DNA from: Membranipora membranacea
Lineage: Eukaryota > Bryozoa > Gymnolaemata > Cheilostomatida > Membraniporidae
Assembly: GCA_914767715.1 (NCBI GenBank)
Contig: OU612072.1
Location: 620,001-684,000, forward strand
Direction of reading: 5' to 3'
DNA length: 64,000 nucleotides
Notes under the pieces: model-generated
The model's database searches: none
Seen by the model: the letters and a program-made list of their open reading frames with translations, nothing else
What the model was told of the DNA's origin: nothing
Shown: in pieces, positions 5,188 to 57,936 of the stretch
How the letters are laid out: each line of letters opens with the position of its first letter
Numbering within the stretch: position 1 is the stretch's first letter
Program-made: the position numbers and the translations under genes

Positions 5188-5484
5188 TTAGTCCGAGTCG
5201 GTAGGTGGAGGGTTGACGGGCGGTTTAGGTGCTCGTCTAGCTGCTGGTTGTGGTTGTGACGGTCTGTAGTCTCCATGTATACCTCTCTCCACTGACTCGT
5301 ACTCCATACCTACGGGCTGGCGGCCGGGATTAGGGGCGGGGTTACCCTTCTGTTTGTCTGTCTTGAGGAAGTCTATAGATGTATATTCCACCTCCGGTGG
5401 TCGGTCAGCTCTCTGTGTCGGACGTACCATAGCAGTGTTAGGGTGTGGCTGATTAATCGCGTGTACCTCGGAGTAAATAATCTC
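5188..5484 (-). CDS. Receptor A last exon: ITIM-like motifs and Pro-rich C-terminus
   Basis: The acceptor is gattgtag, phase 0, with 98 codons to a TAA at 5188-5190. Tyrosine motifs by exon residue: IIYSEV (Tyr4) and VEYTSI (Tyr34) fit the ITIM consensus [IVLS]xYxx[ILV]. MEYESV (Tyr62) has Met at the -2 position and is only ITIM-like. A run rich in Pro and Arg after residue 74 offers PxxP sites for SH3 domains, and the protein ends TDSD. In known receptors such motifs recruit SHP-type phosphatases, which is the basis for calling A a candidate inhibitory receptor. The visible ATG inside the exon is not the start; the frame is open back to the acceptor. Confidence 0.75.
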   Translation of the reverse strand, partial: EIIYSEVHAINQPHPNTAMVRPTQRADRPPEVEYTSIDFLKTDKQKGNPAPNPGRQPVGMEYESVERGIHGDYRPSQPQPAARRAPKPPVNPPPTDSD

Positions 5485-8400
5485 CTACAATCACAAGAGT
5501 CATCAAAATAAGAGGTTTTCTTTACTGATCGCCTTGGTTAGAACGTTGATCAGAACATTCAAAGGGCCTGGTTCACATCATATGAGTAAAGTTTTGCCCT
5601 CCCCCAAACTGAATCTTACAGGTATTGGGCCTAGGCCCTCCTAGGTTTCAGCAATGCTTGAGGCTAGCCAGCAAGCAGTAAGTTTGTCACAGGAAATAAA
5701 GTGGTAGCTATTTATATAATACAAGCTGGCATTGAATGCTTCACACTTGTCAGCCCAAAAACTCAGGTCTAACCTCACTCTACACAACATCAACATATTG
5801 GGGCTCAGACAAAGGATGGTATTACTTACATCATTCAGAGGCTTCTTATCATTTGTAGGTGCTCTCCCTGAAACGGAATAAAAATACACTACAGAGACAT
5901 ATAAGAACGAGAGGCAACTATATAACACTCACCTTTAGTCGGGCGACTGTAAAATAAAATAAAACACAAAATTGTGAGATCATGGACAAAGTTAAGATTA
6001 AAAAAGCTTTGATAACTTAGCATTGATTACTGCTTTGCTTTCTACATTATAACCTCAAGTAGTGAGTAATTATGAATTATTCAGAGCTATTATCAGAGTT
6101 GTCAGTTGTAAGATTTGTGCATATATTTACTTTGGTGGTCTGGAGTCTCCGTTCTCATTAAGAGGTAGATCTGCTCCCTTCTCTCCAGATTCCTGAGAAG
6201 CTGAAAAAAGAAAATAAACATGAAGCCGCATATTGTGGTGTCTCTAACAAACGGGGACAAAAAGTGAGGATTTGAGACTCTGTAAAACTAAAACACAAGA
6301 TATCATTTATGAGTACTTATGCAATACTACAAAAATCGATTTGTGCAATCATCAAGATACACTGAAATCAGCCCATCCGTCTGATATGTGGTGGTTAGGA
6401 AATTGGAGACAACTTGCTTAAACACCACATCTAAGCCTGGAAATATAGATAGATATAAGCTTATATAATGTAGTAATCACAACTCTAGCTACCATCTTAG
6501 CCCCAGAAGGCCAAGTATCAATTCTAGGTAACTCATTATTTATGTTGAATCGAATATGAACAATTGTTTGAAGTTATGTGAGTGACAACTCAACTCAATA
6601 ATGATGGTTTTCAGTTGGTCAGTTCTATGTTTCAGATAAACACATGGCTCACTATTTCTTGGGGGGCTTTAGTTAATTGTCCCACATATTGTAAGCAATG
6701 AGGTAAGCTAACATTTCCAAAACCAGCTCTGTGCTTTGCTATTGTAACAGCCATCACCTATTGGGCTTTTTTGACAAACAGGTGTCACTAGTAGAGAGGA
6801 CATTGAGCTCAAGAAAGTTATTAATCAATGACCAGTTTTCCTCTACTTCTCTAATTGATCGTGATTTTTGGGGGGCATCATCTCAATCACCCATCAAATT
6901 TACTGAAACCCTAACTAAGAGACATAGAATCTTAAGGAAGAACATTCTGGCCACAGAAAAATTGCACATGCAACATTGGATTACCGGTAATGGTATTTTG
7001 CCGACCTGGAACAAATTCAGAAGATAGGTATGGCAAACCAGCATTAATATGGAGGGTAAATATATTAAAATAAATAAGATGAAATCAAAACCATTTGTGT
7101 CCACTATCCTCATCTACCTTGTATTACTTCTGGTTCAAAGCAAGGTCCAAGACTTTACCTTTGTGCTTCTTCCAGCAGCAGAATCCAATGATAGCGATGA
7201 TAATAATGAGGACTATGACCCCTCCCACTGCTCCGCCTACTGCTGCTCCAACTGGTGAGGCATTCTGTCTCTCAGTTGTACCTGGGCTTGGCGGAGGGTT
7301 AGTCGGTGCTTCATCATCCCATGTGACTATCCATGTAATGAGAAGCTGCAGGGCTGAAAGAGAGAAATCACTCAGTATGGAGGAGGAAAAATATACCCGA
7401 GGGAACACTTACATACAGCAGACAAGCAAAATGGACCACTGACTGATTTAAGACAGTGTGTTTTGTAAGAAAACAAACTCAAAAACAAACTTACAGACTC
7501 CATCAACAGATGATGTACATCTTATCACCTCCACATCTCCATTCTCTCTAGAGTTCATTGAGACTAAAAAGGTGTTTCCAGTCACACTAGTTAGATCAGT
7601 TCCATTAGAAGTCCAGGTATAAGTAGGTGTTGGATTACCCTCAATATCACAAGCAATCGGTTTTGGGCTGGCTGGATTGAGCTTCATATCACGGGACTCT
7701 TGAAGATTCCAGTCTCTTGTTATATCTACACCAAATGATCAATCACTTGTTTGTCGTAAATACTATGATGAAACAGCTGATGCAATAAAATTATGCATAT
7801 TACAATTAGATTCATTCATAAGTACCCCCAACATTGAAAGATATATACTTACATCTTGGTAAAACGCCTGTTGTAGATACTACGTCTCCGACAACTGTCC
7901 AGTCAGGATTACCAGTATCTGTACACTTAATCTGGAAACCATTCCTGTCTTCTGTTGAGGGAGTGTACTCTCCATTAGGCAGTATAGTTGATGTCTCATC
8001 TTTCACCAATTCTGTGATATGGAAGCATAGATTTGAATATCCCTTAAGTTTAGCACAGGGGCGTATATTCAAAAAAATTTCACTCACTGACTTTTCAGAG
8101 ATGAGCATAATAATCGGGCGCAGCCCGATCCACACGCCGTAGGCGTGGCGGGGAGGGTGTGGGAGGGGCGCTTAAGCGCCCTCCCACCACGGAAATTTTT
8201 GCATATCGGTAGCAAAATAGTGCAAGCAGAGAGGTATTTCAATAGCTCACTGAGCTGTTGGGTAGAAGATTACGGTAAAAATGCTCCAGTTATAAAGCAC
8301 CCATTTGAAAAAAAAACTGACCTTGATGGGATTCGAACCCACAACAATCTTATTATCAGTGATTATAAAGCGGACGGTCTACACACTGAGCTATTCAGCC

Positions 8401-9534
8401 ACTCACGGAACTCCGTGGGCCGTGAGTGCTAATATACGCCACTGGTTTAGCATATGATGACATTTTTCTCGACTTGATGAGCAATCTTTGAATATATCTA
8501 GGCAAAATGTTACAGTACACTCACGTAGCTATTTTCTGAAATTAATCTTATTAATATTCTTCCATAACAAAATTTGCAGCAATGGCAAATGATCAGCACA
8601 GGCAATGAAAGCTATAATAAAAAGCTCATTTGTAGCCACCTTAATCAATGTCTGTCTTGGCAGCATTTGTGATCGAGTATTCCATTTTTGCTGTAGGACT
8701 TTTAATTTGGACAATGTTCATGCATCCAGCACAGCCTTTTACTGGTATATCAATACAACACAGAACTTGACTCATTGAGAGTCTTAGATACTTGACAATT
8801 GCACACAGTTTTTACCATATTTATAGACACTCTGTGATGAAGAGGAAGAACAACTCGCTGTTAGTGTCTGATTTTCTATGATCAGTTCAGAATCAAAGGC
8901 CATCGCAAGATTTTGGGGTGGTTCTAAAACATGAAGAAAATGAATGTTTTTCATGGGCAATGCGCAAAGTTTCTCCTGTGAAATGATATTCTCAACATTG
9001 CCTTTCATATTTTTAGGATATCTTAAACAAATCAAACAGCTTAATCCAGTAATACTTACAAATACTACATAGTTGTACAAAGGGTATGTCTATGTATCAT
9101 CATCTGTAATTGGAACTACCTTTGATCTCTGTATCAATGCTGTTTGCTAAATTACTCACCTTTAACATTCCTGACTGTGAGAGATGACTCGGAGATCTTA
9201 CCAGAGATGGCGTCAAAGCACTTGAACTTGAGCAAGGACATCTCCTGAGTAATATTGAACACTACAGTGACAGCATTATCATTAGCTGGTACATCACAGT
9301 CGATTGGAAGATTAGGATTGAACGTACCAGAGTGTGAGACAACCCACGTGCTCTGACCGGGTGGCAGTTGACAACCAACATAATTATAATTGGTATTACC
9401 ATCCTCGTCCATTTTAACACCAAAACTGTAGCTTGTTTGTGCTGGGAGTTCAGAATATTTACATGTTACTGTGATGGTCTGGCCGATGTAGAAACTATCT
9501 CCAGTAGTAGTCTCAGCATTGAAGGTCAGGGTTG
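5188..9534 (-). CDS. Receptor A: three-Ig-domain transmembrane receptor with ITIM-like tail
   Basis: Rebuilt from nine exons with consistent GT-AG borders and phases: 9160-9534, 8816-8923, 7853-8011, 7495-7725, 7159-7353, 6131-6200, 5933-5946, 5830-5867 and 5188-5484. They sum to 1487 nt, which is exactly 495 residues plus stop after one upstream phase base. Order: Ig1, Ig2 (two exons), Ig3, Pro-rich stalk, transmembrane helix, cytoplasmic tail with three YxxV/I motifs and a Pro-rich end. Such a layout is typical of cell-surface immune or adhesion receptors that signal through SH2 phosphatases when tyrosines are phosphorylated; that role is inferred. The signal-peptide exon was not found upstream. 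A hAT MITE sits in the Ig2 intron. Receptor C at 52876 is a close inverted paralogue with another tail. Ligand unknown; an allorecognition or immune role is only a possibility. Confidence 0.8.
5830..5867 (-). CDS. Receptor A small cytoplasmic exon (38 nt)
   Basis: Acceptor tccgtttcag, donor GTAAGT. It enters in phase 1 and leaves in phase 0, matching the neighbours on both sides. It encodes RAPTNDKKPLND, a short basic linker before the ITIM exon. Confidence 0.65.
5933..5946 (-). CDS. Receptor A 14-nt microexon
   Basis: Flanked by acceptor attttacag and donor GTGAGT. It enters in phase 2 and leaves in phase 1. Without it the 70-nt exon before (ending phase 2) and the 38-nt exon after (starting phase 1) cannot join in frame. 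With it the frame stays open to the ITIM exon. It encodes four whole codons (RPTK) plus split codons at each end. Confidence 0.6.
6131..6200 (-). CDS. Receptor A juxtamembrane cytoplasmic exon (70 nt)
   Basis: Acceptor cttttttcag, donor GTAAAT. It encodes an acidic, polar segment with GADLPLNENGDSRPP. The spacing of Gly, Asn and Arg resembles the equivalent exon in receptor C (GGINLTDGRNTN) and the candidate one in B (GFTFNENRNT), which supports homology of all three tails at this point. It joins the transmembrane exon in phase 1. Confidence 0.65.
7159..7353 (-). CDS. Receptor A stalk and transmembrane exon
   Basis: Phase 1 to phase 1. The order is a short ITWIVTWDDE segment, a Pro/Thr stalk (APTNPPPSPGTTE), then a helix starting VGAAVGGAVGG and running through a Val/Ile-rich core to GFCCWKKHK. 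The positive charges after the helix mark the cytoplasmic side, so the ITIM exon is intracellular. The same exon is about 90 percent identical by eye in receptor C, which has two extra codons near the start. Confidence 0.85.
7495..7725 (-). CDS. Receptor A Ig3 exon
   Basis: One whole Ig domain in a phase 1-1 exon, the usual mobile Ig exon type. The B-strand cysteine is in IACDIEGNP, the core tryptophan in TYTWTS, and the F-strand cysteine in VIRCTSS, fitting an I-set or C2-type fold. It is the least conserved part of the A/C pair outside the tail. Confidence 0.85.
7853..8011 (-). CDS. Receptor A Ig2 second-half exon
   Basis: Phase 1-1. It carries the F-strand cysteine in GFQIKCTDT. The first half of this Ig domain is the exon at 8816-8923. 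An intron inside Ig2 is shared by receptors A, B and C at the same position. Confidence 0.8.
8056..8444. mobile_element. hAT-type MITE with exact 8-bp target duplication
   Basis: A 389-bp insertion in the Ig2 intron of receptor A. The left end begins CAGGGGCGTATATTC and the right end inverts to CAGTGGCGTATATTA, 13 of 15 matching. It is flanked on both sides by GTTTAGCA (8048-8055 and 8445-8452). CAG termini and 8-bp duplications are the hallmark of the hAT superfamily. There is no transposase, so it is non-autonomous. The equivalent intron of receptor C (about 53960-53975) has a single, slightly diverged copy of the target and no insert. The element also holds GC-rich hairpins at about 8115-8185 and 8401-8428. 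Confidence 0.9.
8308..8402 (-). ncRNA. tRNA-like Pol III unit inside the hAT MITE
   Basis: On the minus strand an A-box-like TAGCTCAG (8386-8393) is followed by a perfect B box GGTTCGAATCC (8329-8339) and a run of nine T (8308-8316), the Pol III stop signal. The T-arm stem and loop are well formed. The acceptor stem pairs poorly and the anticodon region is degenerate, so this is a tRNA relic or tRNA-like promoter and probably not a working tRNA. Confidence 0.6.
8816..8923 (-). CDS. Receptor A Ig2 first-half exon
   Basis: 108 nt, phase 1-1. It encodes PPQNLAMAFDSELII and the B-strand cysteine in LTASCSSSSS. Its protein sequence is identical in receptor C. Confidence 0.8.
9160..9534 (-). CDS. 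Receptor A Ig1 (membrane-distal) exon
   Basis: 375 nt, phase 1-1, acceptor tttcttgtag, donor GTGAGT. This is an Ig-like domain with four cysteines: TVTCKY (B strand), YVGCQL, IDCDVP and LKFKCFD (F strand). It has two extra cysteines that could form a second bridge. N-glycosylation sequon NIT is near residue 94. No core tryptophan is evident, so the fold call is less certain than for Ig3. The open frame running upstream of 9534 is intron read-through; the true start (signal peptide exon) is not identified. Confidence 0.8.
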
Positions 9535-9699
9535 CTACAAGAAAAATACACCACCATGTATGAAGAGCTTTACTTGCCCGAAACGCTTGGTCAGGTATAG
9601 TGCGCTGACTCAGTCTGAATCTTCCAGGCAGTTTATTCTCTTGCGGTGCATCAAAAACAATGGACATAAATTGAACGTCATCCAAATTAATTTGATATT

Positions 9700-11199
9700 G
9701 AATACGAACCCTGGGCTCTGACTTGCTGAACCAGAGTTAATGTGATGATCACTTCCATTATCACCGACAGTGTTGTTATACCACAACTAATTGCCATTCC
9801 CGTTTAGATGGGAAAGCCTCCTTCTGAATAACTGAATAATAGGGAAAATCCATCAACTAGAAACAACAATCAAAATCAACAACAAACCTGGACAAGACAA
9901 TGTGTGGAGCATTATTATCTCATTGTGGGTGACATTTCGACATAGAATTGTGTATTAGCATTGTTGTTATCATTGACTTGTGGTCAACATACCAGGCTTG
10001 TTATTGATATCACGATCATGTCTGAGTCTAAAAGGTATAAGCGGCCCAGTCAACACTAAGCCATCAATCAACCATATCAAATGCATATATAGTTGATACC
10101 ATTAAACAGTTTTTTGTCCGTATTAATATGAAGAGCAGTAGTGACCATTTATATGAAGATGGAATGTGCTGATTAAATTGTGGGATACAATACCCGGTTC
10201 AATAATCTGCTCAGAAATTTCACTCAATAACTGCCCATTTTCAGTGATATTTGGGTGGGAGTTCAAATCATCCATGAAAATAATATATGCTCATCATATG
10301 CTGACGCTGTCTTTCCAGCTGATCAGCTTTGAAACAAACCCGAAACTGACTCTCTGGGACCACTAGAAACTGTGTAACAAAGCATTGAAGTTTATTCTTA
10401 CAGTATTTACTTGCTTGAACGAAGAGTCCTGGTCTGAGGTCACATCAGGCTTTTTTTTTATATATGAACTGTGTTAAACCAAATTCTTTCCATTTCAGAA
10501 TATCGGGTAATCTGTGTTTTATTTGCGCTTGATTAATAGCTTTGATGGCAAAGGCTGGTTTCATTAAACTATGATGAAAGTACTGTTCAGTACAAATCCG
10601 AAAACTATGTGCTGATTTGATAAATGCAGAAATTCTCTGTTTTGTTGGCCCACTACTTGTAGGCATACATATAGTAGGCCTAGGAACTACTGACTAGTAC
10701 CAGTGCAGGGCACACTGCATATGGCCTACAGTTGAACCAGCAGGCCCTAGATCTAGGCCACTATACTTTCATAACATAGACCTTCCTGCATCATTGCAGC
10801 TACTTTGGTCAGTACTTCCTTACATCAATGATCAATTAGCTGTTAGTTTGATTGATGATGGACCAATAATTTTCCAAAATACAGTAGGCCTATGTTGGTC
10901 AAAAGTTTTCAGAAGAGGCTTTTGCTAACTAACAATCAATCACAATAAGGTACACAGGTCGATTCAATCCCCTGTTTCTCCATAGTAGTGGCCATAGCAT
11001 AGTCACTCATTCGATCACCAATAACAGTTACATCAATGAACTGGAAGTGGAACACCACAGGTTACAATTCCACGGCAATGAGTAATAACCTACAATCAAT
11101 CTAGTATGTACTTTATTGAGTCGGTGGTTTTGGTAGCAGTGCAGCTGCCCATACCATGCCTTGTTACTGTCCACCACTATCTATTAATTAGTATTATTA
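9700..11199. other. No supported gene upstream of receptor A
   Basis: The signal-peptide exon and promoter of receptor A should lie here or further right, but I could not pick a convincing ATG-plus-hydrophobic exon ending in phase 1. Short open frames are present without motif support. Confidence 0.4.
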
Positions 11200-11203
11200 T
11201 TAA

Positions 11204-19766: not shown

Positions 19767-19817
19767 TGGTTTAACAGCTGGATCAACACTTAAATGGACA
19801 TCTGAATCGGTTAAGCA

Positions 19818-20505: not shown

Positions 20506-20516
20506 GTGCTTTCATG

Positions 20517-22827: not shown

Positions 22828-22838
22828 GTGCTTTCATG

Positions 22839-28616: not shown

Positions 28617-29126
28617 CCTATTTCCTTGATATGAGAAAACATTAGGGGGCTGGTCTACTGTATTATTTTTAAAACAATTATAGTGATGCTCGTATATACA
28701 TAACATACTTGCCTTGTTGCCATAGTGTTCCTGTTTTCATTAAAGGTAAAACCTGTTTTTTTACTGGCTGATGCTAGATAATCTGAAATAAAGAGATCAA
28801 TGAGTTTGAGCTTTAGTGCTATTAATAAAGAGGAGATGTTTAACCTTCTGCAAGGATTATAAGATGAAGTCAAACTAAGATCACTAGATTTGTATCATCA
28901 TTTATAATCATAGTTTCAATAATAAACCTAGACAGGACACTCTACATAGCTAAGTGAGGCACTTAATTGTAGGCCTTGTTACATTGGTTTTTGTAGTAGC
29001 AATGATGCGATTCAAGTCGTAACACTGCAATCAAATTAATGCAACAGTGGCCTAATACTAACGCTGCGTAGTGCTCTGTCTAGGTTTACACGCCTGACTG
29101 ATATTTCTTCGGTAAACAAACTTAAC

Positions 29127-29326
29127 TTTGCGCTTTTTCCAGCAGCAGAAACTGATGACAGCGATGACAACAATGAGGACTATAACTCCGCTTACTGCTC
29201 CGCCTACAGCTGCTCCGACTGGAGAACCTTTCGGACCCTCAGTAGTACCTGAGCTTTGTGGAGGGTTAGTAGGCGCCTCATCATCCCATATGATTATCCA
29301 AGTGATCAGAAGCGGCTGCTTCAGGG
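29127..29326 (-). pseudogene. Receptor B stalk and transmembrane exon
   Basis: It encodes LLITWIIIWDDEAPTN, a GTTEGPKGSPVGAAVGG stalk and a Val/Ile helix ending FCCWKKRK, colinear with receptors A and C. The downstream donor is altered (see the receptor B entry). The plus-strand open frame over this exon is a shadow. Confidence 0.75.
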
Positions 29327-30599
29327 CTGAAAAAGCGAAACAAAAAAGTTACTCAGAATGGTGGACAAAAGCTGAAAAATAGAAATCAAAATGGTGGCAA
29401 AGTCATACCTGAGGGAACATTTAGAGATTGGAGACAAGCAAAATAATATCTTTTAGTTTGTTCAGCATTGAAGGAAACTCAGTAAATCAAACTTACAGAC
29501 TTCATCTACATATGCTGTACATGAGACTTCCTCGACATCCTCATTCTCTCTAGATCTCATCTCGAATAATAAAGTTTTCCTAGCCACACCAGTAGGATCA
29601 GTTCTGTTGGAGCTCCAAGTGTAAGTAGGTGATGGATTACCTTCAATATCCAGGTCTGTTGTTATGTCTACAATGAATGAATGAGAGTAAGGTAAGGGCG
29701 ACTGAAAATGATAAACCCTTTTGTAATGTGAACACTTAGATTAATACTTACATCTCGGGAAGTCCTCAGTCGTTACTTCTACATCACAAACAGATAAAAG
29801 TCTCCAGTCTTCATAAGCAGTATCTGAACATTTAACTATGAAACTGTTACTCCTGTCTTCAGATGTGGGTGTATATTCCCTACTTTGAATTTCTGTAGTT
29901 GCACCATTTTTGATTAATTCTGTAACATGAAAGCGAATATTACACTAAATCTGAGCTTGATGAGAAAATCATCACAAGTGTAGTTTTTTCCCAAACTGTA
30001 TTCTGATAACTGCGCCTCCTGTCCTCTAGTGAGGTAGTAGGTTAGGGATTTTGTGGCACAATTCTGTGATAGAAGAGGAATAATTATTATATATTCCAGC
30101 TTGGAGTATACAATATGCAATAAACACAAAATGGAACAAAAATATGAATTTTTTGGGTGAAAATGATATTGCTAAATTGTGTTTATACAATTCGATATAT
30201 TCTGAATGCCAGGCATTAAGCAAAAATCCAGAAGTGACTAATAGCAATAAGGGTCATTAGCATACCATATTTATAAGAGCTTTCTGAGGAAGATGAAGAA
30301 CAAATGACTGTGAGTGTCTGATTCTCTATGATTGGTTCAGGACTGACGCTCATCACAAGGTTTTGTGGGGGTTCTGTAACATTGAGCAAAGAATTAGAAG
30401 ATAAATTCGAACATTGATTAGAATACAGTGTAGGCCTATAGGTTATTGGTTATTGGCATGGGTCTATTTATTAAAGAGATGAAAGGGTTTAATAACTTAT
30501 ACTAAATATTTTACCCAACAGATATTTCAATGATATATGACAATGATTTAGTGAAGTGGCATTGTGCTGTTGACTCTATATTACATTTAATATAATTAC

Positions 30600-30931
30600 C
30601 TTTTACAGAATCAGTTCCGATGAGGGAAGCACCTTAAATTGATTGGTGGCAACTCCTGGGTAATATTAAGTACTATGGTAACAGTGTCATCGTTAGCAAT
30701 CTCCTCGGTACTCAAATCCATCCGGAAGTGCAGCGTCCTGCGGCTCTCCCCATTCCAAAGATTCAAATGACCGAGCACAAAGGACATTGCTAGCTGCATT
30801 ATTAAAAGATATGCCGAATCTATAAAGACCTGCAGCTGGGATACTAGAATTTTTACAGGTAACTGTAAGTGGCTGACCAATCATATAGTAACTATCTCCT
30901 GTAGTGGTATCAGAATTGAATGTCAAAGTCG
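30600..30931 (-). pseudogene. Receptor B Ig1 exon, frame-disrupted
   Basis: It starts at an attattgcag acceptor with ATLTFNSDTTTGDSYY and LTVTCKNSS, matching A and C. The frame then shifts so that the second half (TVTIVLNITQELPPINLRCF) is read in another frame, and the last codons need a third. Borders align with the intact exons. Confidence 0.75.
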
Positions 30932-31210
30932 CTGCAATAATCAACGTACAGTTTGTACTCCCTATCATCAATGGGGAGAAAGGAGATGAGTTGGTCAGTT
31001 ATAAAATTGATCATATGGTTAGGCTTTTGTTTTGTTTCTGCTGAAATAGTCAGTGCAGCCAATTCTAAATCTTAAACAAATAAGTCTACTTTGTACAGTA
31101 TAAGTCTCAATACATCAAACTCATAAGGATGAAAATTTGATTTTAAGATCCAGGTAAGCCAAATTGAATGAAATGGATCCTATTGTCATCAGTATCATGT
31201 CATCACAAAC

Positions 31211-31309
31211 CTTCTGCCTCCACTTGTAAAGTAAGAGCTGTTAGCAGTCCAAATATCAATGACATTCACCAAATCCATGCCAAACCAATTATTCAATGTT
31301 GCGATAGTT
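31211..31309 (-). CDS. Candidate isolated exon, unrecognised
   Basis: Strong acceptor (attttgtttgcag) and donor (AAG/GTTTGT) bracket 99 nt open in phase 2-2, encoding TLNNWFGMDLVNVIDIW and a YFTSGGRR end. The pattern resembles secreted-domain exons such as lectins, but I cannot name it. Its phase does not fit receptor B Ig1, so it is probably not part of that gene. No partner exon was found. Confidence 0.3.
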
Positions 31310-42985: not shown

Positions 42986-45175
42986 GCACAAGTTATTCCG
43001 TAGCTTTGGGTATTCCAGGTTGGAGCCAGAATATTGCACTGGGAGACTTTATTGTAATGAAACTTAAGCGCTTTGATTTATTAATAGAATAGCCTAAAAA
43101 ACAAAACCGATTGCCTCAGAGAGTGCGTTTGACATATAGTTTGAGTTAGAGAAGCTAATCGATTTCAAACATGCAATATGTGTGGACAGCCCTGGAAATC
43201 AAATATAAATTGAATGACATTGATGGAAATTGATAAACTTGCATGTACGTTGCTAAAAAATAGACGGACATAGGAAGGATAGCAAAAATATGGACAGTAA
43301 CGAACAAAAAAACTTGTCCAATGTTGCCCGATGGATGGACAGAAATGGATTGACAAAATCAACAGATGGACAGGAATGGGCATGGAATGCCCAAGTTTGC
43401 CTAATGGACAGACAAGGACGGTCTAGATATAAAGATGGACGGGAACGGGCATGATTGATTTGTCCGCCATACATCTCTGGTGCCAGGGCTCTTAAACCTT
43501 TGGGCAATACATGACAACCTGGTTGATATTAGAATCTTTCTGTGCTAACAAGGTTTGGATTTCCCGAATGACTGTGTTATAGAAGAATAGAGTAGTGTGT
43601 AATTCACCTGTCAGTCAGAGCCTTATAAACTCGTTATGCAGTATTTAGGGGCAAGAACTTTTTTCCCTTTAAATGTAACAAATGGGCTTTCACAATATTT
43701 ATTACGTTGAAGAAGTAATATGTGCAAGTTATGGCTGTCACATCGGCAACAAATATAGCAGATTAGGTCTATCAATTTCAAATTCATCTCAGAATAAATG
43801 CTTACTCAGAATTTTAATTCTATCAATGATTGACAGATGTGTGTTCGAGCCCCTAGCAGGTAGCACATAGCGTCATTTCTATAGTTTGGTATATTTCACC
43901 AAAATAATATGTTGAGCCACCTATAAATTTTGTGGCGTCTTCACAAACCAGATACTGTGATGATACATTAATCTATAAAGGATTTGCCAGTTAACTGATA
44001 AGGGATGATAACTCCTACAATTATTTACCAAGTTTAGTGGACAATTATTACCATCATTCATTTACCTATGTATTCCTTGAACAATGTTTGCTCATTCATG
44101 TTACATTGAGCCTTCTCTGTATTAATGGCAACCCTCACAACTAACGAAAGCTTTGCAGTTACTAATTTATGGATAAAATTTCATTGGTTTAATATTATAA
44201 TTAATCTTCGCTTTTCAACAAGTTCATTATGGTTATGATACCATGGTTGTCCGACATAATACAATTATAAGCATTCTGACAGAGGGGGCAACTCCTAATA
44301 TGTTTGGTACCGATGTTATGTATTAGTCATAACATGTAGCATAGGGTCTTCCCACAGTAAAAACCTGTCTTTTCTGAGTGTGGTCTGCATAACATTGGTG
44401 CCTCATCCATTAAACCAATGCGCCAAAAAAAAAGCTAATAACCAATTCATAAAAAGATCAAATTTCCTTTGGTGCACAACGCCACAGGATCCAGGAATTG
44501 TCCCTCATGGGTGCTCCTGAGGTGTCTTGTAAACATTATTCAGTTGACAGTCCAATATGAACCATTGTATCTGCGCCTCATCAATCTAAAAAGTCCTCCT
44601 GAAAGACTCTTATCCTGCCCTTTATTTAAATAGCACAACGGCATGACATGACATCATGCTGAAGCCAATTTTTCCGGAATCAGTAGTTGATTAGGATTCC
44701 AACGATGTATGAAATGTCCAAATTGGACAACGTTGGTATCATAACTTTATGCTGATGACAGATATAAGCGGCAGTAATTAAGTCCATTTCTACAAACTAC
44801 CGGTTTTGTCGAAGGGGGGGAGGGAGCAAGGGTTTTGGGGGCTCAAACCAATGAAATTTGCAACCTTTTTTTGATATTTTGTAGCAGGACATTGTAATTT
44901 GGTGCGGTATGAGGTCTTTGTCGCTGATATTTGGAGTTATTGTTGCATTAACTGTGACACAAAAGGTTCTGTCACAAGGTTTGTATTCTAATCTGATGCT
45001 ACGATACTGCAAATAATTTAAAATCCACAGATCTGTTGAGCATAAATTAGGCGTTTTAACTATATTATTTGGCGCTTGTAAGAATAAATTTAGAATTTTT
45101 AGAATTAGCTGATACATGCTATTTTATTCAATGCTTGTCTATAAGGAAGTTTTCCGGGCTGCCCTACAAGGATTC
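42986..45175. other. No gene seen
   Basis: Short open frames only. The stretch at 43260-43460 contains several imperfect GATGGACAG-type units, a weak tandem repeat. Confidence 0.4.
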
Positions 45176-45840: not shown

Positions 45841-46004
45841 ATGAAGATAGTAGTGCTCAAAATTCATTCTCTTAGAAGTTTGTCTACTTTTTGGTCAAAT
45901 CCTTTTTTTCTCAGATTCGGCATCTGCATTGTTGACAACTTGAAGACACAAGTTTTTGAAAGCATTTAAGGTTCAGAAAGTCCCAACTTTATGTATGTGT
46001 GTGT

Positions 46005-46550: not shown

Positions 46551-46673
46551 TTAGTTTATTTTTGGTCTCAATCTCTGAGAAATAAAACTGTCTCTGTAGG
46601 GTGCTCTGTAAAAATTATTAAAACTGTTGATTCTGTAAAAATAAATAGAATGATAAGACCATAAAAAATACTA

Positions 46674-47306: not shown

Positions 47307-47311
47307 GTTCA

Positions 47312-47558
47312 TGTTGCGAAGTTGGGTTCTATCAGGATGGCAAGATATAAAGCAGTCCACTCACCATGAAAGTCAGTAGACAAGTGCTCATGTGTGTCTC
47401 TTCAATCAAGGTCACGGTCAAGTCAGTCTCTGTCATATATAGGCCAGGGCAGCTGATGATAACTCCTTAGTATGTACAGAGAGGACAACTCCAAGATACA
47501 TGTAGAAAGTACATGTATGACAACATGACAACAAACCTTATGATAGGACTACTCCACA
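47312..47558 (-). repeat. LTR (3') of the gag-only element
   Basis: Starts TGTTGCGAAG and ends CTCCACA on the plus strand. 247 bp, same length as the copy at 51320. Confidence 0.9.
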
Positions 47559-47827
47559 TGCCCATACTATTATAAGGGTTTTTTGACACATACTCTATAA
47601 CCCTAACAGGGTTGAGAGACTTCACATGCCCTTTCGTTGAGAAAGGGTGGTTTACTCATACTCTGTGGCCCACCATCAGGGTTATCACACAACTACGGGG
47701 ACTACCGACAACTGTCAGCAATCACACAAGCAATAACGAAAAGCGGATAGGATGTCAACTTAAAACAAGTATGTTTACATAAAAGGTGACAACAGCTCTT
47801 CACTAGATTAGAATTTACAGAGGGAAG

Positions 47828-50863: not shown

Positions 50864-50871
50864 CCATGGAC

Positions 50872-50946
50872 ATTGGATGAGTCTGCAACAAACACAGGTA
50901 GACTAGCAAAGATACTAGCCATGGCACCAGTGTACACCCTATACAA
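50872..50946 (-). CDS. Gag N-terminal codons cut off by hAT
   Basis: 25 codons from the first Met at 50946 (a second Met is at 50922) up to the hAT target duplication. The frame matches the open frame that resumes at 49039. The rest of the open frame to 50665 reads into the transposon. Confidence 0.7.
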
Positions 50947-51319
50947 TAGTAAGCTAGGGTATACTCAAGCGACACAAGTTCAAATTGTATTCAAGAACAC
51001 AAAGAAAACTTTTACTCAAATTTCCAGCCAAAATTTGTGAACAAAGATGGAGGAAAATATCTTTTGTTGTTTGATTTTTGGATGTTTCACTTTTCATACA
51101 CCTTGGCAGCACTTCCTCCTCACCTAAACTAGGGCTTTCCACTCCTAGTTAGTTACTCACCTAAACACCTTTTCTACACACCTTTTTCTCCTTACTCCTC
51201 TCCTCAATAACACCTTATCTCCTACTCATCCACCTCTCCTATACACCTCTCTTTCTCCTCTACACCTCTCCTAGCACTTCACCTTCACCTCTCCTAAGTA
51301 TATCTCACAACTGACACCA

Positions 51320-51566
51320 TGTTGCGAAGTTGGGTTCTATCAGGATGGCAAGATATAAAGCAGTCCGCTCACCATGAAAGTCAGTATACAAGTGCTCATG
51401 TGTGTCTCTTCAATCAAGGTCACGGTCAAGTCAGTCTCTGTCATATATAGGCCAGGGCAGCTGATGATAACTCCTTAGTATGTACAGAGAGGACAACTCC
51501 AAGATACATGTACAAAGTACATGTATGACAACATGACAACAAACCTTATGATATGACTACTCCACA
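51320..51566 (-). repeat. LTR (5') of the gag-only element
   Basis: 247 bp, about 98 percent identical by eye to 47312-47558. Followed on the minus strand by TGGTGTCAGTTGTGAG as a primer-binding-site candidate. Confidence 0.9.
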
Positions 51567-51571
51567 GTTCA

Positions 51572-51750
51572 GTTGGCTGGTTTTCTGTCAACAATTCAAT
51601 GATCACAGTGTCGTCGGCATATTTTACTAGTGTGATGTTGCTTGTTGATGGCATATCGACAACATTAAAGGAGAATAGCAGTCGGCTGACGACGCATCCC
51701 TGAGGGCTTCCAGCTGAAGTGCTCAATGATTTTGACATGTTGAGTGATGT
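51572..51750 (-). pseudogene. LINE RT core fragment, upstream of the LTR insertion
   Basis: It carries AGSPQGCVVSRLLFS and the catalytic box LVKYADDTVII, then stops at the LTR target site and continues at 47306. Confidence 0.8.
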
Positions 51751-52029
51751 AATAACTCGCTGTGTTTAGTGTCAAAATTGATGGATAAGACAAAAAATGG
51801 AAAGCAAAACAGCCAGAGGTCATTAAGAAATGATCACCTTTGATCACCTTTCATCGCCGTGGTCTTGCGCGGATGGCGGGTTTCTGCTTGATCCCAAGTT
51901 CTACCAAACTCCTCCATCACACTCGGTCTTCAGCATCTGAACCATATAGATCAAGCCATCCAAAGTCCAAGTTCACTGTATCGCACCATCTTTGTTTTGG
52001 TCTACCCCTAGGTCACACTCCTTCGACTG

Positions 52030-52750
52030 TCAACTCTGGCACTCTAAGGATGCCGTCCTCACTTTCTCTTCATCTAACCCGCCATACCACTGCATTCTTT
52101 TTCTCCTCATCAGATCATTAATTGGCATCACTCGGGCCTCTGCTGTAATTTCCTCATATCCCTTGTGGTCCTCTAGAGATATACCCATGCAATATTGCAA
52201 CATATGCAACTTGCAGGATGACATCTTATCTGCTAAAGATCCTGTGATTGGCCATGTCTCATTTCGATATAGCAGAGCTGGTCTGATAGTTGTTTTATAC
52301 ATCAGCACTTTCAGTTTAATAGGCATTCTTGTCACAGAGCACACCAGTCAGTTCTCTCCTCTCATTCCATGCCTTGGATGTTCTCAGCAATATCTCCTTG
52401 CGGCAACCTCCATCTTAGTGGATTGTTGTGCACATGTACATGAACTGAGAACATTTAGGCAGGCTTTCTGCTTCATGACTACAATAGTTCTTCATCCTGA
52501 TGTTTTCTTGATCCCTAACTGCTAGCAAATGCTCTGTTTTCTTTCGGCTTATCTTCAATCCAGCTGCCTCCAACTTCTCTCTCCATAACTCTAACCTACT
52601 CTCTAGTCTCTCTCTCTCTGTAATAGTTTTAGAAATGCTGTGAACGGTTTTTAAAAGCAACAGGTGAAAAAGTAAAGCACACAACTTGCTCAAGTTTGAT
52701 CCAATCGCACTCCGAGTCATTACCATCCTATTGGCGAATGCAACTTTCAA
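52030..52750 (-). pseudogene. RTE-like LINE reverse transcriptase remnant
   Basis: 52415-52750 has RLESRLELWREKLEAAGLKI and SRKKTEHLL (palm/thumb border). 52030-52344 has YKTTIRPALLYRNETWP and LMRRKRMQWYGGL. These are the ordered C-terminal motifs of RTE-type LINE polymerases, with a frame break between. It ends close to where A/C receptor homology begins. Confidence 0.75.
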
Positions 52751-52875
52751 AGCAGGTAAATTGGATCATACTTGATCCGGCAGATTGAATTTTAGCCTGA
52801 TTCAGCAGGAATTATAATCCCAAGAGTTTCGGGCAAGTAAAGCTCTTCATACATGGTGGTGTATTTATATTGTAG

Positions 52876-53250
52876 CAACCCTGACCTTCAATGCTGAGAC
52901 CACTACAGGAGATAGTTTCTACATCGGCCAGACCATCACAGTAACATGCAAATATTCTGAACTCCCAGCACAAACAAGCTACAGTTTTGGTGTTAGAATG
53001 GACGAGGATGGTAATACCAATTATAATTATGTTAGTTGTCAACTGCCACCCGGGTGGAGCACGTGGGTTCTCTCAAGCTCTGGTACGTTCACTCCTAATC
53101 TTCCAATCGACTGTGATGTACCAGCTAATGATAATGCTGTCACTGTAGTGTTCAATATTACTCAGGAGATGTCCTTGCTCAAGTTCAAGTGCTTTGACGC
53201 CATCTTTGGTAAGATCTCCGAGTCATCTCTCACAGTCAGGAATGTTAAAG
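52876..53250 (+). CDS. Receptor C Ig1 exon
   Basis: 375 nt, same borders as 9160-9534. It differs from receptor A at seven residues, six of them between residues 41 and 73 (for example Gln to Trp at 61, His to Ser at 68). All four cysteines are kept. Confidence 0.85.
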
Positions 53251-56200
53251 GTGAGTAATTTAGCAAACAGCATTGATACAGAGATCAAAGGTAGTTCCAA
53301 TTACAGATGATGATACATAGACATACCCTTTGTACAACTATGTAGTATTTGTAAGTATTACTGGATTAAGCTGTTTGATTTGTTTAAGATATCCTAAAAA
53401 TATGGAAGGCAATGTTAAGAATATCATTTCACAGGAGAAACTTTGCGCATTGCCCATGAAAAACATTCATTTTCTTCATGTTTTAGAACCACCCCAAAAT
53501 CTTGCGATGGCCTTTGATTCTGAACTGATCATAGAAAATCAGACACTAACAGCGAGTTGTTCTTCCTCTTCATCACAGAGTGTCTATAAATATGGTAAAT
53601 ACTGTGTGCAATTGTCAAGTATCTAAAACTCTCAATGAGTCAAGTTCTGTGTTGTATTGATATACCAGTAAAAGGCTGTGCTGGATGCATGAACATTGTC
53701 CAATTTAAAAATCCTACAGCAAAAATGGAATACTCGATCACAAATGCTGCCAAGACAGACATTGATTAAGGTGGCTACAAATGAGCCTATTATTATAGCT
53801 TTCATTGCCTGTGCTGATCATTTGCCATTGCTGCAAATTTTATTATGGAAGAATATTAGTAAGATTAACTTCAGAAAATAGCTATGTGAGAGTACTGTAA
53901 TATTTTGCCTCGAGATATTCAAAGATTGCTCATCAAGTCGAGAAAAATGTCATTATCTACTAAACTAAAGTGATATTCAAAGCTATGCTTCCCTATCACA
54001 GAATTGGTGAGAGATGGGAATTCAACTGTATTGCCTAATGGAGAGTATACTCCCTCAACAGAAGACAGGAATGGTTTCCAGATTAAGTGTACAGATACTG
54101 ATAATCCTGACTGGGTAGTCTTTGGAGACATAGTATCAACAACAGAAGTGGTACCAAGATGTAAGTGATTATCTTACGGCGTCGGGGAAACATTTTAATC
54201 CTTAGAAGGATTTGATAAGATCTGCTGTTTTATCATAACATTTACCAAATCCAAGTGATTGAATATTTTTTGTAGACATAACACGAAACTGGGGTCTTCT
54301 GGAGACCCGTAATACTAAGCTCAATCCAACCATCCCAACAACGTTATCTTGTGATATTGACGGTAATCCAACACCTACTTACACCTGGACTTCTCATGAT
54401 ACTGTGCTTACTGGTGAGACAGGAAGCACCTTGAGACTCAACATGAACTCCAGAGAGAATGGAGACACGGAGGAGATCACTTGTACAGCATCCGTAGATG
54501 GAGTCAGTAAGTGTTGTTTATTGAGTTTCCTTCAATGCTGCATAAATTAAAAAAAAATCTTTTGCTTGTTTCCAGTCTGTGAGGGTTCCCTCATATGTGT
54601 TTTTTTTCCTCCATTCTGAGTGATTTATCTTTTTCAGCCCTGCCACAGCCGCTTCTCATAACTTGGATAATCACATGGGATGATGAGGCACCGACTAACC
54701 CTCCGCCAAGTTCAGGTACTACTGAGAGACAAAATGCCTCACCAGTCGGAGCAGCTGTAGGCGGAGCAGTGGGCGGGGTTATAGTTCTCATCGTTATCAT
54801 CGCTATCATCGGATTCTGCTGCTGGAATAAACGCAAAGGTAAATGGACATATTTGCCCTAAAATATGAGTTGATACATGAGAGAGGGAATTACAGGAAAC
54901 CAAACCAAACATTATCCTGCCTTCGACAAATAACAAGTTTTAGACTCGATCTTACAACGACAACCCTTTGTTCTTTTTGCAGATAAAAATATATTAGTAA
55001 GACAAGCAGGAGGTATTAATCTGACTGACGGCAGAAATACTAACAGGTGTGTAGATACAACATACAGTAGTGCGCGTACCACTGCACAACACACAGGTCT
55101 TCAGCTAGAAACCATGAGTCAAGCGCTGTTTCGAGGCCTTCTCTAGTACAACCTCCTCATGGCCGGCCCCAGCAGCATGAAGCCACCCCTGTGTGTTGAT
55201 GAGCATCTCAATCAATATCATCGATCCCTCAGTGCATTTTGCCAGCTTCGGTGGTTTGACATAATTGGTGTGTTTACGCTGTTGCGCAACCAGGGAGGCT
55301 GCCAACTCGTCATCGTTTCAGTGTAACAATGTTCGCTCCATCACTCTCATGCTTATACTCTAAGCCAAACCAGTGCAGGGAGGTTTGCTTTCCTTCAACT
55401 CATCGGCGCAACATTGCTAATCGTCAAGGCATAGTTCACTACTCAAATTCACATTGAGCATAGTACAACTCATACACAAATCAGAGAGATGACTGGGCTG
55501 ACTGTGATCTCCTGTCTCGCTCTGCCTGCCTTTTATGCGATGGCCAAGCTTTTAATCCTATGTTTGTAATGCCTTAGATCTAACTCAGACTCACTTTGGT
55601 TTTTCACCCTGCAGAGATTTGATTTGAGTATTAAAGGCATAATCCCGCCTAGCCTTCTACCCCGATCAGTTTGCTAATCATCACCTAATCCCCTCAATCT
55701 AATCCTTACAAGGATTATAAACAAAGGAATTAAATGCTGGCAAACTCCACAAAACAAAGTGAGTGTGTTAAACCCCAGCTTACAAGCAATAGGATTACTT
55801 AGCTTTTGTCTTCACACAGTGCTGTTGCCAAATCCATGCAGATGCGCTTTCTGCCTCATGTACTATGCTTTTTGTGGCTTGTTCGAGTTCTCTGCCCGAC
55901 AGCCCAACTCTAGTCAGAAATTTGGTAGCTGATCTAGCCATGAATCCACGGCAGCCAACTTCCACTGCGAATAATTCGCAATTCCAACCTTTGTCTTGGC
56001 ATTGTGTCACCAGATCTTCGTATCTTGTCAGTTTTCTCTCATGCGCGTTTGAGAGATTTTCTTCCCAAGGCACCGTCAATTCCATCAGTATTAGTGCTTT
56101 TTCTTTGTCAGACCAGACAATTAAGTCTGGTCTTTGGTTCGTGATCACAATATGCTGTGGCATGCTGAGCTGCTCTGTGAGGTCGCATCTCACCTGCAAT

Positions 56201-57936
56201 TCTCCGCTGTTTATCAATCCCTTTTTGCAGAAAATCATTTCACGCGCTTCACCACCAGCATTAGCATATTCACACTTCTCCGTGACATATTTACACAACA
56301 CTTTCAGGACTCGATTATGCCTATATGTGTATCTTCCAAGGCTCTGCGGGCAATTCGACAGAATATGTCGATGTGTGCCCTTGGCCGAGCACCCGGCGCA
56401 CGTCGAGTTATCGGTCAACTTCCAGCGTTCCAGGTTCGCCGGGGTCGGTAGTTGATCATAAGCTGCACCAACCAGAAAGCTGATCCTTTGTGGCTCCATC
56501 GACCACATTTCTGTCCATTTGAGCTGACGCTGCTCAACAGCCTCCCAACAAGTCCACCTGCCTTGTTGGGCTTTGCCTACAGCTTGTGTCTGGCGGCGCT
56601 CCTCTTCCATCTTGCGCACCTCATCAACTACCATCTCCCGTCTAACCTTTGGGCTTTCCTTTGAGAACCACCGGTTTGCTTCCCAGCTGATGCCATGACA
56701 TGCAGTTGTCACAGCACCCACAATCTCACTTATCTCCAGTGTGTATACAATATTATCACTGTTTTTAGATTTTTTTGAAATAATTTACTTTGTAACAATG
56801 TTGTTCCAACTGTGTCAATTTAGAATATAATAGTAGGAACTAATAATAATAAAACAATAAGGAAAAGCACAAGGATTTACGGGTTTAGGCAAGTGTATAT
56901 AGCTACCGAATCACCAAAGGTAAATAGTCATACAAAAATTTGATTCAAATCAAGGAAATTTACAAGCATTCAATACCAAGAGACAAACATCCACTAAATA
57001 CAACAGTGAGCAAACATCATTAATCTGACCAGACTTGGCCAACACAGCTGCGTTTATTAGCGAACAATTATCAACAAAGTAAGTTTGAAACTTTTCGCTT
57101 GCTGTTTGATCGCACAGTTATGTTCGATTTTAGTTTTCTCGGATAACACTTCGATTCATTATGAACTAAGACTGTCTCAAAGCTAACTTTTTATTCATTG
57201 CTACATTTATAGATCCGAGAACAGAACACATATTAGGGGTAAATATAATTCACTGTCTTTCTTTGTTGTTGACATATCAGATGATATTAGGTCATCCAGT
57301 CATGGCCTTGATTTAGTCAATATATCAGTAAATCAATTGGGAATTGGATTGGAAGGGTCATAGTAATGATTAATAGATGGGAGGACTGTTTTTCTTTTAT
57401 AATTTGTTGAACATATAGATAGTAATAACCCTTTGTGTGTCATCTATACAATCAGGCATATAATCGCTCCTGTTAGCTATTCTGGTTGATATTCATTGGA
57501 ATGACATGAGGTTGTAAAAATTGTCATAACTCAAAAACTAAGGGGTTTAGAAGGAAAGCTTAGGAAATAAACCTCATCTGCATAAGATCCTTGATCTATC
57601 TTTCTAATTTCTAGCCTGCTAACAATACCAAAAATAATTTTATTGATATTGAAACACACAACAAGGTGTATAAATAGACTTATTTTGTGTTTAGCTTCAA
57701 TAATTTCAGCAGAGAACGCAGCAGCTGGTGAGTATGAGGAGGTGGCTGCTGTACCAAACTCAACCACATCACCAGATTATGTGAATGGCGGTATTATAAT
57801 GAGCTCTAATATAAAAACATACGAGAATCTATCTGAGGTCACCAGAAAACTTGATAATGAGTACGAGCGGATAAACATACAGAAACGGAAGGATGATGTA
57901 CATAACTACACTCATGTTGGTGATTGGAGGAAATGA
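52876..57936 (+). CDS. Receptor C: three-Ig-domain transmembrane receptor with ITAM-like tail
   Basis: Exons: Ig1 52876-53250, Ig2a 53487-53594, Ig2b 54002-54160, Ig3 54276-54506, stalk/TM 54638-54838, juxtamembrane 54983-55048, tail 57710-57936. Phases agree and give 455 residues plus stop after one upstream phase base. The ectodomain matches receptor A closely at the distal end, less in Ig3. The tail is unrelated to that of A: YEEV, YVNG (a Grb2-type YxN site), YENL, YERI and YTHV, with YENL and YERI ten residues apart as in an ITAM (YxxL/I-x6-12-YxxL/I). In known receptors ITAMs recruit tandem-SH2 kinases and activate; that is the basis for calling C a candidate activating partner of A. 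The signal-peptide exon was not found, and the last intron holds an R2-like LINE fragment. Confidence 0.8.
53487..53594 (+). CDS. Receptor C Ig2 first-half exon
   Basis: 108 nt, protein identical to the receptor A exon. Donor TATG/GTAAAT. Confidence 0.8.
54002..54160 (+). CDS. Receptor C Ig2 second-half exon
   Basis: 159 nt. The middle (YTPSTEDRNGFQIKCTDT) is identical to A, but both ends differ, with about nine changes in 53 residues. Confidence 0.8.
54276..54506 (+). CDS. Receptor C Ig3 exon
   Basis: 231 nt. Cys in LSCDIDGNP, Trp in TYTWTS, Cys in EITCTAS. Only about two thirds identical to A by eye. Confidence 0.85.
54638..54838 (+). CDS. Receptor C stalk and transmembrane exon
   Basis: It encodes ITWIITWDDE, the stalk APTNPPPSSGTTE, then VGAAVGGAVGG and an Ile/Val helix ending GFCCWNKRK. 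It leaves in phase 1, so it could join either the 54983 exon or, by skipping, the tail exon directly. Confidence 0.85.
54983..55048 (+). CDS. Receptor C juxtamembrane exon with two possible donors
   Basis: Acceptor ttctttttgcag. The sequence AACAGGTGTGTAG offers donors after 55046 and 55048. Only the second leaves in phase 1 and keeps the tail frame. It encodes a VRQAGGINLTDGRNTN stretch, related to the 6131-6200 exon of receptor A. Confidence 0.55.
55795..56721 (-). pseudogene. R2-like LINE C-terminus with restriction-like endonuclease
   Basis: 308 open codons. The order is an RT thumb/linker with WKLTDNSTCAGC, a zinc motif CAGCSAKGTHRHILSNC (CX2CX7HX4C), the GRYTYRHNRVL segment, then a restriction-like endonuclease core RPDLIVWSDKEKAL and ELTVPWE, and ERKLTRYEDLV plus VEVGCRGF. 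This architecture belongs to R2/R4/NeSL-type non-LTR elements, which cut their target with a PD-(D/E)XK nuclease. The RT itself is missing upstream, so it is a 5'-truncated insertion in the last intron of receptor C, in antisense. Confidence 0.75.
56722..57709 (+). other. Rest of the last receptor C intron
   Basis: AT-rich with no supported exon. It ends at a tandem acceptor TTTCAGCAG (57705-57712). Confidence 0.5.
57710..57936 (+). CDS. Receptor C tail exon with ITAM-like motif
   Basis: Acceptor taatttcag, phase 1, with stop TGA at 57934-57936. It encodes about 75 residues. Tyrosine motifs by exon residue: EYEEV (9), DYVNG (24), TYENL (38), EYERI (52), NYTHV (67). YENL-x10-YERI fits the wide ITAM definition. 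There is no transmembrane or basic-patch feature. A NAGNAG acceptor lets splicing shift by one codon without changing frame. Confidence 0.75.

Follow-up and report, generated by a model that had tools for sequence, protein, structure and literature searches.

The stretch of DNA analysed (64,000 nucleotides, referred to below as the window) spans positions 620001-684000 of the 27.2-Mb contig C8 in a genome of 339 Mb (18 contigs). Its spliced Ig receptors, and the SHP-2-type and Syk-type genes found elsewhere in this genome, identify the source as an animal. It contains two genes, designated A and C, whose predicted products are membrane receptors with closely similar outermost domains and unrelated cytoplasmic tails. 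Gene A (minus strand, 9797-5188) is composed of 10 exons and gene C (plus strand, 44909-57936) of 9. In both cases the introns have GT-AG borders and the exons form a single open frame, of 524 and 486 amino acids (aa), respectively, which bears out the initial annotation of two multi-exon receptors in inverted orientation. The putative proteins share the same order of elements: (i) a signal peptide, (ii) a first immunoglobulin domain (Ig1), (iii) a second domain encoded by two exons (Ig2a and Ig2b), (iv) a third domain (Ig3), (v) a stalk with a transmembrane (TM) helix, (vi) short cytoplasmic exons (cyt) and (vii) the tail (Table 1).

The models of A, C and a further gene, E, were built from the DNA by joining in-frame exons with GT-AG borders. 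The exon chains proposed previously for A and C exist and are in frame, but the signal exon of C and the whole of Ig3 had been overlooked. The signal exon of C, which ends in a phase-1 donor, was detected by its similarity to that of A; a distance of 7.9 kb, which includes sequence from transposable elements, separates it from Ig1 downstream. We also examined 100 kb on either side of the window, which provided further related units. A scan for signal exons revealed plausible candidates upstream of A, B, C, D, E, F and G, and no convincing candidate for the units at 579 kb and 768 kb of C8. Exons cyt1 and cyt2 of C could be skipped jointly without loss of the frame.

Both proteins belong to the immunoglobulin superfamily (IgSF). 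This assignment is based on recognition of Ig3 by Pfam (Ig_2; E values of 2.8e-7 for A and 3.7e-9 for C), a low-confidence structural model of Ig1 and, for Ig2, two cysteines and the position only. Ig1 of A, folded with Ig1 of C as the sole other row of the alignment, gave an all-beta AlphaFold2 (AF2) model of low confidence (predicted local distance difference test, pLDDT, 65), with antibody V domains as its best matches in Foldseek (8 hits at E≤0.001). When the ectodomain was compared with the PDB, 40 sequences matched at E≤1, with the best stretch lying over Ig3 in 37 of them (contactin, neurofascin, Robo, DCC and the like); there was no CEACAM chain among these 40. Pfam found no sushi domain in either protein. 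In a set of 5.8 billion proteins, no homolog was found with A as the query (E≤0.001; scoring covered the 7,987 candidates with most words in common) or with an alignment of A, C and E (E≤0.01; 7,993 scored). This absence is weak evidence of rarity, as the share of eukaryotes in the set is not known.

Table 1. Predicted features of genes A and C, the tract shared by them, and the related unit B (positions within the window)
Feature	Position	Strand	Basis or remark
A exon 1, signal peptide MAISCGITTLSVIMEVIITLTLVQQVRAQ, phase-1 donor	9710..9797	-	comparable signal exons, also with phase-1 donors, precede other units
A exon 2, Ig1, V-like, 125 aa	9160..9534	-	gene model; AF2 pLDDT 65, Foldseek antibody V domains
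A exon 3, Ig2 first half (Ig2a)	8816..8923	-	gene model
A exon 4, Ig2 second half (Ig2b)	7853..8011	-	gene model
A exon 5, Ig3	7495..7725	-	gene model; Pfam Ig_2, E 2.8e-7
A exon 6, stalk and TM segment	7159..7353	-	gene model
A cyt1, phase 1 to 2	6131..6200	-	positioned as cyt1 of other units; likeness by eye only
A cyt2 micro-exon, 14 nt, phase 2 to 1	5933..5946	-	frame and GT-AG only
A cyt3, cytoplasmic	5830..5867	-	gene model
A tail: IIYSEV, VEYTSI, MEYESV, proline-rich end, stop	5188..5484	-	gene model; 3 other genome copies
C exon 1, signal peptide MRSLSLIFGVIVALTVTQKVLSQ	44909..44978	+	unit F has a related signal exon, 85% nucleotide (nt) identity
C exon 2, Ig1	52876..53250	+	94% aa identity to A
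C exon 3, Ig2 first half (Ig2a)	53487..53594	+	DNA identical to A
C exon 4, Ig2 second half (Ig2b)	54002..54160	+	gene model
C exon 5, Ig3	54276..54506	+	gene model; Pfam Ig_2, E 3.7e-9
C exon 6, stalk and TM segment	54638..54838	+	gene model
C cyt1, phase 1 to 2	54983..55046	+	counterpart in F at 66.7% aa identity
C cyt2, 26 nt, phase 2 to 1	57213..57238	+	frame and GT-AG only
C tail: YEEV, YVNG, YENL, YERI, YTHV, stop	57710..57936	+	gene model; 7 other genome copies
A side of 1,146-bp conversion-like tract (Ig1, intron 1, Ig2a, part of intron 2)	8445..9590		35 mismatches, gap-free
C side of 1,146-bp conversion-like tract	52820..53965		same alignment
Unit B, decayed related receptor	28712..31265	-	signal candidate 31265, frameshifted Ig1 30932-30626, Ig2a, Ig2b, Ig3, TM 29312-29127, cyt1 28783-28712

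The tails of A and C are, as annotated, unrelated exons, and they represent two separate types. Each recurs in the genome, which was searched with both tails (E≤0.01, copies in the window counted): the A-type tail is present at 4 places (A, D, and 256 kb and 438 kb of C8) and the C-type tail at 8 (C, K at 472 kb, F, 288 kb, 345 kb, E, 309 kb and G). The three further copies of the A tail show 91-97% aa identity to it. A single tail shared by both genes is ruled out by the existence of these two distinct recurring exons. One gene alternatively spliced to two tails was also rejected, since the two tails are encoded on opposite strands, 52 kb from each other, and each follows a separate set of Ig exons.

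The canonical immunoreceptor tyrosine-based inhibitory motif (ITIM) is [ILVS]xYxx[ILV], and the canonical immunoreceptor tyrosine-based activation motif (ITAM) is YxxL/I-x6-8-YxxL/I. The tail of A contains, as annotated, two sequences matching the ITIM consensus (IIYSEV and VEYTSI) plus MEYESV, which fails at position -2. The tail of C contains no consensus ITIM. Its five tyrosine motifs are present as described and include three consecutive YxxI/L/V sequences (YENL, YERI and YTHV), but the spacing between YENL and YERI, which had been likened to that of an ITAM, is 10, and that between YERI and YTHV is 11. The canonical spacing is found neither in C nor in its 5 other stop-free copies (10 and 11 in all). 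Since these gaps exceed 6-8, we term the tail ITAM-like. In 20,000 composition-preserving shuffles of each tail, the two ITIMs of A were reached in 0.19% of cases, and the two spaced YxxI/L/V pairs of C (gap 6-12) in 0.24%. The YxN motifs in the tail of C could leave room for Grb2-type adaptors.

The similarity of the ectodomains is unevenly distributed. The initial annotation of near-identical ectodomains holds only for Ig1 and Ig2a, which lie in a gap-free tract of 1,146 bp with 97% nt identity; outside this tract the identity is 88% in Ig2b, 69% in intron 3, 79% in Ig3, 72% in intron 4, 90% in the TM exon and approximately 55% over the 263 bp preceding Ig1. The tract begins 56 bp before Ig1 and ends inside intron 2. 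Its mismatches are distributed as follows: 3/56 in the 5′ end, 13/375 in Ig1, 2/236 in intron 1 (99.2% identity), 0/108 in Ig2a and 17/371 in intron 2. Because both edges are sharp and located within non-coding DNA, the pattern points to a conversion-like exchange between the outer regions of A and C rather than to plain duplication. Gene conversion is the process that we infer, although unequal exchange would look alike. The possibility that A and C are simple recent duplicates was rejected, since identity falls sharply at both tract ends and the individual modules group differently (see below).

The Ig1 exon is more divergent between A and C than intron 1 and Ig2a together (Fisher P = 0.008), and the tract part of intron 2 is as divergent as Ig1. 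The nonsynonymous (dN) and synonymous (dS) divergences of Ig1 are 0.032 and 0.049, a ratio that gives no signal of positive selection. All 7 residue changes fall inside the C-C′-C″/FG region of the model (nominal P = 0.0003, for a region drawn post hoc on a model with pLDDT 65), a concentration that is suggestive; the 7 changes between D and F (residues 29, 38, 47, 50, 73, 98 and 107) fit this region less well. Intron 2 of A also carries approximately 400 bp absent from C (window 8040-8440, minus sense); these include a T run as well as a stretch resembling the B box of a tRNA gene (GGGTTCGAATCCC), and perhaps represent a tRNA-derived short interspersed nuclear element (SINE).

Two units in the right-hand flank, D and F, combine the same modules in another way. 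Unit D (C8 731.6-735.5 kb, minus strand) has an A-type tail (96% aa identity) and an Ig1 just 43% identical to that of A. Unit F (743.9-755.5 kb, plus strand) has a C-type tail (77%), a C-type signal exon and a D-type Ig1 (96% nt identity). The outer regions of D and F are 90-95% identical, in a tract that begins just before Ig1 and stops just after the TM exon, ahead of the tail; the cytoplasmic backbones of C and F are 84-89% identical, and A and D share 96% from Ig2b to the TM exon. Quartet tests with bootstrap support, run module by module on A, C, D and F, grouped AD|CF for the signal exon (99.9%) and the TM exon (94.7%), and AC|DF for Ig1, intron 1 and Ig2a (100% each). From this discordance it appears that outer exons shifted between backbones more than once.

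A genome-wide census was performed with the ectodomain and TM segment of A as the query (E≤0.001); 114 of 164 candidates were scored, and the counts are thus lower bounds. It yielded at least 117 exon matches, among them at least 29 Ig1 exons, of which 22 are located at 0.12-0.82 Mb of C8 (10 on the plus and 12 on the minus strand), 6 at 2.3-2.51 Mb and 1 on contig C10. At least 15 TM exons were counted, 14 of them in the main C8 cluster. All 12 tails lie within C8:0.25-0.76 Mb, i.e. in this cluster of approximately 0.7 Mb, and by strand and order 12 of its 14 TM units carry an A-type or a C-type tail. Neither tail was found (E≤0.01) for the two remaining units, B and that at 332 kb.

Comparison of 12 of the 29 counted Ig1 exons distinguished three classes. 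Class I comprises A (ITIM tail), C and K (ITAM-like tails), with 96-98% nt identity (K is 98% identical to C and 96% to A). Class II comprises D (ITIM) and F (ITAM-like; 96%), and class III u262 (ITIM) with E, u357, u275 and u299 (ITAM-like; 86-97%, with 96% between u262 and E). Each of the three classes is thus found on both tail types, the tails of units beyond the window and its 100-kb flanks being assigned by strand and nearness. Two units have a lone Ig1: u432 (ITIM tail), 63% identical to D, and G, at most 63% identical to any other. Unit K (C8:472.5-477.6 kb) is a near copy of C, located 200 kb away (tail 99% aa identity, Ig1 98% nt identity). The second cluster on this contig (C8:2301944-2510866) contains the 6 related Ig1 exons mentioned above, and neither of the two tails was detected there; it possibly carries a third tail type.

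The ITIM tail is under constraint. Between A and D it shows 13 silent and 4 replacement changes (dS 0.215, dN 0.018), and the corresponding numbers are 7 and 4 for A and u262, 13 and 5 for D and u262, and 5 and 2 (over 64 codons) for A and u432. The dN/dS ratios in these four comparisons are 0.08-0.17. The stop-free ITAM-like tails (6 of 6) have each retained the five tyrosine motifs; the divergences between ITAM-like tails are dS 0.110 and dN 0.046 for E and u275, 0.434 and 0.194 for C and E, and 0.039 and 0.043 for u275 and u299.

These observations bear on the possibility of passive concerted evolution, in which a repeat-rich, unstable cluster is homogenised at random, so that the outer regions match without selected function while most members die. 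The many damaged units agree with such a process, as do the transposable elements in the window and its flanks and the fact that A and D, with the same tail type, share as much sequence as A and C. Random homogenisation accounts poorly for the placement of the tracts, which start just ahead of Ig1 and end in intron 2 (A/C) or between the TM exon and the tail (D/F), for the occurrence of each of the three Ig1 classes on both tails, and for the low dN/dS of the ITIM tail; we consider it quite improbable.

A proteome lacking phosphatase and kinase partners with tandem SH2 domains had been named as grounds for abandoning the paired-receptor interpretation. A search of the genome for the SH2 family gave 44 exon matches, and these include candidate partners of both kinds, which rules out their absence. 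At C9:12.128-12.132 Mb, N-SH2 and C-SH2 pieces have PTPN11/SHP-2 as the best PDB match (E = 3.8e-38 and 5.3e-29); this SHP-2-type candidate is known by its two SH2 domains only. A second locus, C4:24.387-24.392 Mb, contains an N-SH2 piece that matches ZAP-70 best, followed by SYK (E = 2.2e-16 and 1.2e-14), and precedes the start of a second SH2 domain and kinase pieces, both recognised by eye. One kinase piece gave per-domain best scores of 43.0 bits for ZAP-70 and 42.7 bits for SYK (an EGFR entry tops the list through two copies), and another had no PDB match at 1e-6. The genome thus appears to encode SHP-2-type and Syk/ZAP-70-type SH2 proteins.

It is conceivable that both tails feed similar outputs. 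The C-type tail would then be an adaptor-docking tail (YEEV of Src type; YVNG/YENG and YENL of Grb2 type) and the A-type tail would recruit SHP-2 as a positive partner, the two diversifying signalling rather than setting its sign. YxN motifs are preferred by Grb2 and are present in 2 of the 5 motifs of C, whose spacing of 10 and 11 is off the canonical ITAM; moreover, SHP-2 is often a positive transducer, and the sole SHP found is closest to it. Against this, the tandem YxxL/I/V spacing is kept in 6 stop-free copies, hydrophobic residues at position -2 are confined to the A-type tail, and a Syk/ZAP-70-type kinase is present in the genome. On balance, similar outputs seem unlikely to us.

The interpretation that we favour, at a probability of about 0.68, is that A, C and their relatives are type I membrane receptors from a multigene family that is arranged in clusters and works as a paired-receptor system. 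Each member would consist of a V-like Ig1, Ig2, an I-set-like Ig3 and a single TM helix, with one outer class placed on two alternative tails. The ITIMs of the A-type tail most likely recruit an SHP-2-type phosphatase and would damp signalling; the five conserved tyrosine motifs of the C-type tail, including the tandem YxxL/I/V, most likely recruit a Syk/ZAP-70-type kinase or SH2 proteins of Grb2/Src type and would trigger it. Exchange of outer exons within the cluster would keep the recognition surfaces of both arms matched, while other positions drift. The pairing itself, as put forward in the initial annotation, is favoured by the three Ig1 classes on two tails, the exchange of outer domains, the constraint on the ITIM tail and the candidate partners, whereas opposite signalling and a common ligand are predictions. 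The same applies to the splicing, surface expression, phosphorylation and partner recruitment of A and C.

Several observations weigh against this interpretation. The splicing of A, C and E is modelled from the reading frame and GT-AG borders in the DNA. Complete in-frame chains were read for these three genes only, and E is without its cyt1-like exon. D has lost the cyt1-3 stretch, so that its tail could be in frame with the TM exon only by way of a cryptic exon; in F, Ig1 is frameshifted and the tail contains a stop, and G has stops. B is decayed, with a broken Ig1 and neither tail, the Ig1 of K changes frame near residue 90, and the tail of u432 ends early. The second pair (D/F) is therefore damaged on both sides, and in the third the u262 side is known from Ig1 and the tail. 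At least 17 of the 29 Ig1 exons are without either tail in a census that took in A-type and C-type tails only; other kinds may exist, above all at 2.3-2.51 Mb of C8. The ITAM-like spacing (10/11 versus 6-8) and MEYESV depart from their consensus sequences, and the constraint on ITAM-like tails is only mild, as in E and u275. Finally, a 96-column piece of Ig3 groups AF|CD (97.4% bootstrap), which we read as an additional exchange or noise. The Ig1 at 579 kb also contains a stop. Such damage would be expected in a young family undergoing birth and death of genes as well as in a family that is decaying.

In layout and evolution, A and C match paired receptors of vertebrates, by analogy with the CEACAM and Siglec-11/16 systems; a probable ligand-binding domain shared between damping and triggering types of tail is familiar above all from the immune cells of vertebrates. 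CEACAM1/CEACAM3-type pairs likewise have a V-like N domain and carry ITIM or ITAM-like tails under near-identical outer domains, according to the available part of the source (PMC5112662). The ceacam pairs of Xenopus are described there as lying in opposite orientation, as do A/C and D/F, with recent conversion confined to the ligand-binding exon and later changes in C-C′-C″/FG (PMC5112662); A/C show a recent conversion-like exchange over the corresponding exon(s), and changes in C-C′-C″/FG that are only suggestive. Unlike in the portion of the CEACAM account available, the A/C tract takes in half of Ig2 and introns, and the tail exon layout differs. By the tests made, including the PDB comparison, in which CEACAM was not matched, A and C appear not to be members of the CEACAM family. 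For Siglec-11 and Siglec-16, the accessible part of the source reports that the ectodomains of the inhibitory and activating partners have been kept alike through repeated gene conversion (PMC5701461), so that, as in A/C, partners with opposite tails match in the outer part. These Siglecs differ from A/C in being a lectin family, and A and C have the motifs in the receptor's own tail. The activating Siglec member couples through DAP12.

Signalling of the ITIM/ITAM type is not new outside vertebrates, as Botryllus FcoR and Hydractinia Alr illustrate in the available part of PMC12065747. FcoR (520-610 aa) consist of a V-type Ig domain, a sushi domain, two C2-type Ig domains, a TM segment and a long tail; like the A/C family they are non-vertebrate multigene IgSF proteins with ITIM and hemITAM/YxxI/L/V tails, and their alleles and splice forms swap ITIM for hemITAM (PMC12065747). 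They differ in having the sushi domain and adjoining a partner gene, FF, and in the part of the source available matched ectodomains kept by conversion are not described for them (PMC12065747). A (524 aa) and C (486 aa), which have no sushi domain, appear not to be FcoR members. Alr of the non-bilaterian Hydractinia are, like the A/C family, clustered IgSF genes with ITIM/ITAM-type motifs (PMC12065747, available part); that part does not mention conversion-linked pairs with opposite tails for them. A and C might, by analogy, be mainly homophilic adhesion or allorecognition molecules, with tails of different sign tuning fusion or rejection, which would be compatible with a paired-receptor system. 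The A/C family has an IgSF cluster on a single contig, near-identical Ig1 between members and ITIM/ITAM-type tails, in line with the portion of the source available on Alr and FcoR (PMC12065747), but neither A nor C has the order of domains found in FcoR, which includes sushi. We regard this as possible, though somewhat unlikely; an allorecognition role for the A/C family is speculation.

The open literature, as covered by titles and abstracts and with subscription papers mostly outside it, contained no report of this locus or of conversion-linked pairs with opposite tails outside vertebrates. In the sources covered, no invertebrate is described in which opposite tails carry a single outer class whose likeness is maintained through exchange among genes. 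Whether a non-vertebrate animal has independently evolved a full paired-receptor system, with at least three specificities, each on an inhibitory and an activating tail and matched by outer-exon exchange, is in our judgement evenly balanced. Such a system would be the cis-encoded equivalent, outside vertebrates, of CEACAM/Siglec pairs, and might function in self/non-self recognition or as a decoy against microbes. Provided that the two arms do have opposing effects and that the animal is not a vertebrate, paired-receptor logic with conversion-driven matching arose more than once. The locus would then offer a concrete test case for the question of how activation thresholds are set through germline receptors where adaptive immunity is lacking, and would extend the ITIM/ITAM link of Botryllus and Hydractinia by a mechanism of evolution through which the two arms stay matched.

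The long introns of C are swollen by mobile elements: the end of a hAT transposase lies inside the first intron (49896-50573), and a fragment of a zinc-binding reverse transcriptase (RT; zf-RVT) is located between cyt1 and cyt2 (55798-56784). The first intron also contains a long, near-perfect short tandem repeat (45990-46550) with several open frames, whose unit is TGTA judging by the translations (listed at spacing 8). Elsewhere in the window there is an array of 9-bp repeats (42.4-43.0 kb), a group of retroelement pieces on the minus strand (17313-20462; RT and RNase H recognised by Pfam at 18377-19817), which we read as Gypsy-like, and further RT pieces at 13.5 kb and 40.2 kb. A separate cluster of Ig domains was found with Pfam ig on another contig (C4:20268594-20349224).

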